Positions 46,660 to 52,302 of a stretch of 64,000 nt of DNA are shown one piece after another (positions within the stretch are counted from its first letter, which is position 1; each line of letters begins with the position of its first letter). Below the pieces are notes generated by a model that saw only the letters and a program-made list of their open reading frames with translations, did no database searches and was not told the origin of the DNA. Source of the stretch: Bdellovibrionales bacterium (GTDB lineage Bacteria > Bdellovibrionota > Bdellovibrionia > Bdellovibrionales > Bdellovibrionaceae); assembly GCA_018266295.1 (NCBI GenBank), contig JAFEAQ010000008.1, positions 1-64,000 of the forward strand. Reading direction: 5' to 3'. The position numbers were made by a program, and so were the translations under genes.

Positions 46660-46665
46660 TATAAT
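46660..46665 (+). promoter_or_regulatory. Minus-10 box for the structured RNA
   Basis: A perfect TATAAT, preceded by TGCG. The -35 region (TTATAG, 17 bases upstream) is poor. It would start a transcript near 46672, just before the structured region. Confidence 0.5.
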
Positions 46666-46671
46666 TTGGGC

Positions 46672-46828
46672 ATTTAGAAAAAATTGAACTTTCCCAATCC
46701 TTAAACCGATCCCCCTCGGGTTTAACGCTCTTTCGTAGGCCGGTGATTACGTTGGAGCCTTGAGAAGTAACTAACCAGTTTAGAAGCAATCCATGAGATT
46801 TTGATTGGGAAAGCCCAACTGGCTTTTT
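46672..46828 (+). ncRNA. Candidate structured RNA, copy A
   Basis: About 157 bases. The ends pair: TTCCCAATC (46691-46699) with GATTGGGAA (46803-46811). Inside are an AACCGA/TCGGGTT hairpin and an AGGC/GCCT hairpin (46737-46760). An intrinsic terminator (AAAGCC, loop, GGCTTT plus T run, 46810-46828) follows and shares two bases with the closing stem. A related sequence lies at 51900-52180, with shared blocks CCAATCC, CCGA..TCGGG, AACGC, TAGGC, ACG.TGGAGCCT and AAAGCCCA..GCTTTTTGCATTT. I know no RNA family with this pattern. Nothing else is seen in the 398-base gap 46510-46907. Confidence 0.6.
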
Positions 46829-46907
46829 GCATTTCCGGGGCCAGGGTAGGGAAAAATTTAAATGATTGCAATGTCCGACGGGGCCGGTGATCGGATGAGA
46901 GAGTCCG

Positions 46908-50835: not shown

Positions 50836-51717
50836 CTAGTTACAAGTGTCTTTATACTTTTGGTAGGCAGCCTTTGCGTTTGCCCAGTCAGCTGTGAAAT
50901 TTACTGCTAAGCCTCTTGTCGCCGAAGCAACTTGCTGATTCATTACGCCGATTGCTCTTAACGAACCATCAGCTTCTCTGCAAAGCAGAGGACCGCCAGA
51001 GTTGCCTGGTGTTACAGGACAACTAACATTGAATGCTGTAAGTCCACTCATAGATGTATCTAAAGAACAGTTGCCTTGCCACCAGAGATTTTTTACTGAT
51101 TTTTCACCTGGGTAGCCTGCTACTTCAAGAGTTTTGCAAGTTTGTGCGTCTTCAACACTATATTGGGCAGTTGTGATTTTTGGGATTCTTTGGCTAATAC
51201 CTTTTTCTAACTTATCATTGAAAGATTTTTTGAGCTTAATAAGTGCCCAATCCTCTGCGCCATTGTCGGCACGATTAGCATCAGGGTTACCAGAAGCAAC
51301 AACCTCACCCTCAATTGAATATTCAAAATCTTTGCCGGGAGTTTGACTTTGACCAACGTTGAAAGTCACTTTTTGACCGAGTACTTTCTGATTTCTGCCA
51401 AGAACATGCTTTGCAGTCCAAACAAGGCATTCATTTCCTAACCACGCAGAGCCACGACCAAGTTTCGTGTCAATCGCTCCAATACCGTTGTATTCTGGAT
51501 TCTTGATTCTATCGAGAGGTTGGCGCTGATCATTGTCCAAGTGACCAACTGGTCCTTTGAATTCAGATACAACATAGTAGCTCTTCAAAGCAGGCAACTT
51601 CGAAAGACCGCTTTTCACAGTGAGGTTTTGAGCACAAGTTTTAGTGTCTCCAAATGATACACTTGCAGTGCCGATCAGAGTTGCCAAGATTGTGATAACT
51701 AAAGCTGTGTTTTTCAT
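50836..51717 (-). CDS. Secreted trypsin-like (S1) serine protease
   Basis: 293 residues with a signal peptide; the ATG at 51717 follows GAGG, whereas the open frame to 51804 is not credible. Catalytic residues are in WTAKHVL, EDWALIKL and PGNSGGPL. It has several cysteine pairs (about eight cysteines) and lacks a lipobox, so it is probably released into the periplasm or beyond. It is more distant from the other two S1 proteases here, closer to the V8/trypsin border type. Confidence 0.87.
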   Translation of the reverse strand: MKNTALVITILATLIGTASVSFGDTKTCAQNLTVKSGLSKLPALKSYYVVSEFKGPVGHLDNDQRQPLDRIKNPEYNGIGAIDTKLGRGSAWLGNECLVWTAKHVLGRNQKVLGQKVTFNVGQSQTPGKDFEYSIEGEVVASGNPDANRADNGAEDWALIKLKKSFNDKLEKGISQRIPKITTAQYSVEDAQTCKTLEVAGYPGEKSVKNLWWQGNCSLDTSMSGLTAFNVSCPVTPGNSGGPLLCREADGSLRAIGVMNQQVASATRGLAVNFTADWANAKAAYQKYKDTCN

Positions 51718-51989
51718 AACGACCTCACTTGCAAATAGGTATTTCAAGAATCGTGCAGTGCCAGATGCAAATGAGTGATAGTTTAAGACAAATAGAACTG
51801 TCAAGGACCCGAATCGAGGACCAAAATTGGCGCCTAAGTTATTGGAATTATTTCAGAGTGAGACACTTTGTGCGTTCGGTGAAATGCTAAAAAGCATGGC
51901 ACTGAAGGGGGCTCTCCAATCCGTCCCTGGCCGATTTCTCCTCGGGGGTTCAACGCCCCTCTTAGGCGTGTACACGCTGGAGCCTAAAA

Positions 51990-52112
51990 TTACCGGAAAA
52001 GTTTTAGCAAACGTTCAATGATCTCAATAGCCAAAAGAACCAGCCTTAAGAGCCGTTGAGCTATATTCAAAAAACGACGAACCTTACTATGCTTTGTAGT
52101 TAGATTCTGCAT
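51990..52112 (-). CDS. Tiny cationic amphipathic peptide, 40 residues
   Basis: ATG at 52112 with a strong TAGGAGGT site five bases away. The peptide begins MQNLTTKHSKVRRFLN and continues as an amphipathic helix rich in Leu, Ile and Arg, ending LLKLFR (net positive). I recognise no family. It resembles membrane-active type I toxins or antimicrobial helices. Its ribosome site is paired in a hairpin (52115-52138), and the whole gene is antisense to structured RNA copy B, which would be a natural repressor. Confidence 0.55.
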   Translation of the reverse strand: MQNLTTKHSKVRRFLNIAQRLLRLVLLAIEIIERLLKLFR

Positions 52113-52114
52113 GG

Positions 52115-52138
52115 GACCTCCTAGGTAACGAGGAGACC
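52115..52138 (-). promoter_or_regulatory. Hairpin masking the ribosome site of the 40-residue peptide
   Basis: On the minus strand GGTCTCCT pairs with AGGAGGTC (two wobbles) around an eight-base loop. The right arm is the ribosome site itself, ending two bases before the ATG. Confidence 0.6.
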
Positions 52139-52302
52139 TCTGCCCAAAAAGCGAAATTGGAAAGCCCAGTTTCGCTTTTTGCATTTTGTGCGCCGATGTC
52201 GGTGATTTCTATTTTGGATTTGAGATTGCAAGAAGGGCAACTTTCGGACGGAGAGACCGAGTTTTAGGATTTAGCGCTGCGTCCGGAAACAGGGCCTGGC
52301 AC

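Follow-up and report, generated by a model that had tools for sequence, protein, structure and literature searches.

The DNA analysed here (the window) is a 64,000-nt stretch of a Bdellovibrionales contig, and one locus in it, copy B, probably belongs to a new Bdellovibrionales family of type I toxin-antitoxin-like loci that, judging by comparison of its members, would act much as the aapA/IsoA systems do. The minus strand of copy B carries the predicted toxin gene, a 40-codon ORF for a cationic amphipathic peptide (MQNLTTKHSKVRRFLNIAQRLLRLVLLAIEIIERLLKLFR plus stop; 52,112 to 51,990) that is nested in a longer, 64-codon frame and preceded by the Shine-Dalgarno (SD) sequence TAGGAGGT (52,116-52,123, minus). 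The first-pass annotation had described this SD as strong and fully paired in an 8-bp stem, and a minus-strand fold of copy B confirmed the description, with 52,115-52,122 pairing to 52,131-52,138 in a hairpin spanning 52,115-52,138. Taken singly, the stem is unremarkable against shuffled sequences (p 0.22), so that its meaning comes from comparison across the family.

A protein search with the peptide matched 27 of 59 relatives at E≤1. With a family profile built from 18 peptides, members turned up in 47 of the 143 class genomes (E≤0.01), often in several copies, and the 38 positives among 368 genomes of the phylum (E≤1e-4) all fall within one order, which includes Bdellovibrio, and represent five families. 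The genome from which the window comes has further copies at C11:948709, C4:194571, and C11:250369. Scanning named genomes for a DNA pattern gave 20 matches. Seven of them encode family peptides (one cut short): six come from records of Bdellovibrio or Bdellovibrionaceae, and the seventh is from a MAG labelled Deltaproteobacteria. The remaining 13 encode no family peptide and by appearance are chance matches. Pfam, NCBIfam, and PHROGs yielded no convincing family for the peptides, and searches of plasmids and of phages, each with one family peptide as query, yielded no match. The 73 matches were reduced to 71 loci by dropping one without a start codon at a contig start and one with an N in its leader (L027); a weak match with a TTG start in the window's own genome (L074) and two truncated loci (L010, L021) were kept. 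De-replication at 55% similarity left 43 loci, 42 of them with leaders usable in leader-dependent counts. Loci within one family are related, and counts over them therefore do not represent independent events; figures after de-replication are quoted wherever they were made.

The peptide gene is real. The ATG and the SD occupy fixed positions across the family, and a five-base SD core is present in 39 of the 42 de-replicated loci. Over 17 independent pairs, the peptide frame has a pN/pS of 0.45 and the other five frames have 0.57-1.64, and differences by codon position are distributed 79/55/110; on this comparison, purifying selection is acting in the peptide frame. The first-pass annotation had made its reading depend on an undisrupted frame in close relatives, and the frame is intact in most, a truncating deletion being seen in one (G033).

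AlphaFold models the copy B peptide as a single helix (residues 7-39, mean pLDDT 85.8). Family peptides are 33-45 residues long (median 39), amphipathic, and positively charged (mean net charge +5.4), and so fall within the usual bounds for type I toxins (<60 residues, hydrophobic or amphipathic). The amphipathic pattern, whose conservation at homologous loci had been proposed as a check, recurs across the 43 loci (core hydrophobic-moment z 2.6). Several loci occur together on single contigs in three arrays, L075 (G076:C33), L076 (G076:C24), and L077 (G016:C129), at spacings of about 0.5-3 kb and, in G076:C33, with unrelated genes in between. Strong amphipathicity and charge, a multicopy habit, and predatory relatives could also fit a cationic peptide secreted or released against prey or competitors. 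This role is very unlikely, as 33-45 residues leave no evident leader or export signal, no set of transport genes was seen by eye beside the three arrays, whose flanking genes look mutually unrelated, and a self-silencing mRNA would have no obvious role for an exported product.

Local pairing of the SD is common in the family: it is complete in 29 of the 43 de-replicated loci versus 14 of 108 ordinary gene starts, and the hairpin shows no strand preference (GU29:AC30). Farther out, the part of the leader lying about 60-40 nt ahead of the ATG has its complement about 65-145 nt past the stop, as judged over the 71 loci. This 5'-3' long-distance interaction (LDI) is significant (p≤0.05) in 47 of the 71 loci, against about 3.6 expected, and not significant in 24; after de-replication the count is 27 of 43. 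The loci's own arms score at least 27 in 21 of 43 cases, a score reached by 2.0% of swapped partners, and since the paired sequences vary from locus to locus, the two arms covary. The ratio of G.U to A.C oppositions in the LDI is 27:6 versus 520:459 in swapped pairs (symmetric scoring, Fisher 0.001), and this G.U excess shows selection on the minus-strand, that is the peptide-strand, RNA.

In copy B, the 5' arm GGGCUUUCCAAU (52,156-52,167, minus) lies at the predicted 5' end of the mRNA, and its pairing with the 3' arm AUUGGAGAGCCC (51,909-51,920, minus) is present in the minimum-energy fold of a 269-nt model mRNA, which forms one closed structure. Over 28 loci, pairing between the SD region and the 3' UTR averages 9.4 expected pairs; stability relative to shuffles is z -5.7 for the mRNA strand versus z -4.5 for the antisense strand, and the mRNA is the more stable in 21 of the 28. 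These results revise the first reading of the locus in two respects. In the modelled mRNA, the SD is expected to be closed by the long 5'-3' interaction as well as by its local hairpin; and the domain at 51,905-51,989 (minus), which is common to copy B and the toxin-less copy A described below, behaves in folds and comparisons as the 3' UTR of the peptide mRNA and appears structurally part of it. In this domain and its relatives, the motif CCAACGTGTACA recurs on the minus strand, followed by GGGCTGAAAACCC or GGGACTTAAAATCC; by eye, repeated GGAACGTT-like boxes replace these motifs in the G016 and G076 arrays.

The ORF is itself constrained beyond its amino acids, at a few codon sites and not at others. 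Part of this synonymous constraint is accounted for by a hairpin inside the ORF (52,023-52,060, minus), for which the family z is 10.8 against synonymous recoding; it exceeds its own 95th percentile under that null in 16 of 43 loci, and its G.U excess is marginal once composition is corrected (p 0.08). The rest is accounted for by a promoter-like element on the antisense strand, where the residual constraint reads approximately TTTAG-N16-CCGAAA. This element resembles the TTAAG-N16-CCGATA consensus given for attack-phase FliA promoters of B. bacteriovorus in PMC3627812, a study of strain HD100. At its fixed position, the family mean is 7.30 of 11 consensus matches versus about 5.8 under synonymous recoding (z 8-10), the spacing optimum is 16, and each half alone reaches z 6.4. 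Two further offsets lie above their null as well (z 6.4 and 7.5), but their scores, 3.95 and 5.81, are lower. At least seven of 11 positions match in 35 of 43 loci; copy B has exactly seven, with TTGAG at 52,056-52,060 as the -35 and ACGAAC at 52,077-52,082 as the -10 (both plus strand, inside the ORF). FliA is encoded in the same genome as the window.

A terminator-ended RNA antisense to the peptide gene had been part of the first-pass annotation, and its terminator stands: an intrinsic terminator of 16 pairs lies at 52,145-52,181 on the plus strand and overlaps the peptide promoter. A hairpin in the corresponding zone (about -72) is significant in 46 of 71 loci and not in the other 25, among them those of the G016 and G076 arrays, most of which still have a FliA-like element. 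Its mismatches lean towards the antisense strand (AC25:GU12, p 0.047; p 0.051 after correction for composition). Together, the candidate in-ORF promoter and the terminator predict an antisense RNA, the putative antitoxin, of about 97 nt (52,089-52,185, plus) that would span codons 1-7, the start codon, the SD, and most of the leader; a plus-strand fold of 52,090-52,186 has z -3.65. What does not stand is the longer RNA starting near 51,900 ("RNA copy B" of the first-pass annotation), for comparison across the family makes a start inside the ORF most likely. A promoter scan found no sigma70 promoter for a long plus-strand RNA near 51,880 at copy B, and such an RNA was rejected as the main reading of the conserved unit in view of the minus-strand bias of the LDI. 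A candidate sigma70 -10 for the antisense RNA within the ORF was also discarded, its positional peak being fully due to the amino acids (33 of 69 observed versus 34.0 expected under synonymous recoding). Rfam showed no family at its gathering threshold in the window, and matches at relaxed settings were weak and far below cut-off.

On the peptide strand, the element is of a different class. Sigma54 promoters have GG and GC dinucleotides 10 nt apart, and this spacing is that of 49 of the 71 loci (29 of 42 after de-replication), versus only 2-10 of 71 loci for spacings of 5-9 and 11-15; 22 loci lack GG-N10-GC. At the -12 position, ATGC is the usual sequence in place of TTGC. In copy B, the element reads GG-CGCACAAAAT-GC (52,181-52,194, minus), with a +1 predicted near 52,170, and across the family the start site expected about 12 nt after GG-N10-GC coincides with the usual start of the long-distance helix. 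RpoN is encoded in the window's own genome; since it is also encoded in 129 of 141 genomes of the class, its presence is not discriminating. Assignments on both strands rest on consensus and spacing, and the pairing of two promoter types suggests opposite control by sigma54 and FliA. The core of the type I layout put forward in the first-pass annotation is strongly supported, in that comparison finds selected features on both strands, and it is changed in the start and extent of the antisense RNA.

The toxin-less relative, copy A (about 46,676-46,842, minus), lacks both SD and peptide frame; the first-pass annotation had noted that it is without the insert carrying the gene. It may be a remnant or a working decoy. 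It retains GG-N10-GC at 46,829-46,842 (minus) and an 18-bp closing 5'-3' pairing (z -3.15, with 0 of 200 shuffles as good). Copy A is the only locus seen that is missing the ORF, in a sample biased by retrieval of loci via the peptide. As all other loci seen carry the peptide, the simplest reading makes copy A a toxin-less derivative, and the first-pass reading of the peptide gene as part of an insert in copy B was not borne out. A search for an orthologue of copy A elsewhere gave just short terminator-like or A/T-rich matches. An exact TATAAT was noted by eye near copy A on the plus strand (46,660-46,665). Copy A, which keeps its structure without an ORF, and the synonymous constraint, which reflects selection at the RNA or DNA level, would also be explained if the family were a non-coding element, a long plus-strand RNA, with the ORF incidental. 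This is extremely unlikely, given the low pN/pS in frame, the conserved SD and ATG, the minus-strand bias of the LDI, and, within the biased sample, the confinement of ORF loss to copy A.

Turnover was also seen at one site in Bdellovibrio genomes: G006 carries the locus intact, in G033 an internal deletion truncates it and leaves the 3' arm in place, and in G036, which has no family match at E≤0.01, the site is empty where its relative has the locus. A repeat of about 75-95 nt, present in several copies and both orientations in Bdellovibrio genomes, adjoins this site (L160, about 2487-2578 of G036:C1; also the flank of L011). Toxicity of the peptide is a prediction, and a small, conserved membrane peptide that serves the cell in stress or the life cycle without being toxic, under tight translational control and with the antisense RNA as a timing device, would also have a selected frame and a helix; sigma54- and FliA-type elements likewise suggest programmed expression. 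We nevertheless regard such a role as unlikely. The layered silencing of one tiny gene, the patchy spread (38 of 368 genomes), the empty site and truncating deletion in close relatives, and the toxin-less copy A all fit a dispensable, harmful product better.

For a type I toxin-antitoxin-like locus, we infer the following scheme of transcription, mRNA processing, and toxicity. An mRNA of about 270 nt would be made on the minus strand from the sigma54-type promoter and encode the 40-residue cationic amphipathic helix, which would act on the producer cell's own membrane. The primary transcript would be translationally inert: the local SD hairpin would mask the nascent mRNA, and the LDI would close the finished one and make the SD region pair with the 3' UTR. 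By analogy with aapA/IsoA, trimming of the 3' end would release translation. The antisense RNA of about 97 nt, which would start from the attack-phase, FliA-type promoter within the ORF and end at the terminator that overlaps the toxin promoter, would stop what escapes, pairing with codons 1-7, the start codon, the SD, and the leader so that the mRNA is blocked or degraded. A further, tentative possibility is that the pair is wired to the life cycle, with attack-phase FliA making the antitoxin from a promoter within the toxin's own codons and sigma54 making the toxin. The balance of these two alternative sigma factors might then set when the silenced toxin mRNA is released, for instance on a cell's exit from attack phase or its failure to exit.

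Several known systems share parts of this layout. In hok mRNA, 5'-3' pairing is relieved by 3' processing, which activates the message, and Ibs/Sib loci have several chromosomal copies with cis antisense RNAs; the Bdellovibrionales family differs from both in peptide sequence, promoter classes, and its in-frame antisense promoter. TisB, which is under SOS control, is likewise an amphipathic membrane helix of similar pattern, and the family peptides gave no meaningful Pfam match in this comparison. The closest likeness is to aapA/IsoA which, as described in PMC6733600, combines a small toxin in several chromosomal copies, SD-sequestering hairpins, a 5'-3' long-distance interaction in the primary mRNA, and a short cis antisense RNA opposite the toxin ORF. 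AapA3 has 30 residues versus the family median of 39, and aapA/IsoA belongs to another phylum; the sigma54-type toxin promoter, the FliA-type antitoxin promoter within the ORF, and the overlap of antisense terminator and toxin promoter are further points of difference.

In the literature searches made, no paper on a type I pair in Bdellovibrio or its relatives came up, and according to a 2025 abstract (PMC12390103), Proteobacteria, Firmicutes, and Tenericutes are the only groups in which type I systems have so far been found. This multicopy family is large, and its strand-resolved covariation makes precise predictions, namely two start sites, a lock of 12 bp between the 5' and 3' ends, and an antisense promoter lying in the coding sequence. 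If two sigma factors do control the two RNAs, a self-targeting peptide would be tied to the way predatory bacteria switch between their attack and growth forms. Next to copy B, the minus-strand gene at 50,836-51,804 looks, from a GNSGGP motif seen by eye, like one for a trypsin-like serine protease.
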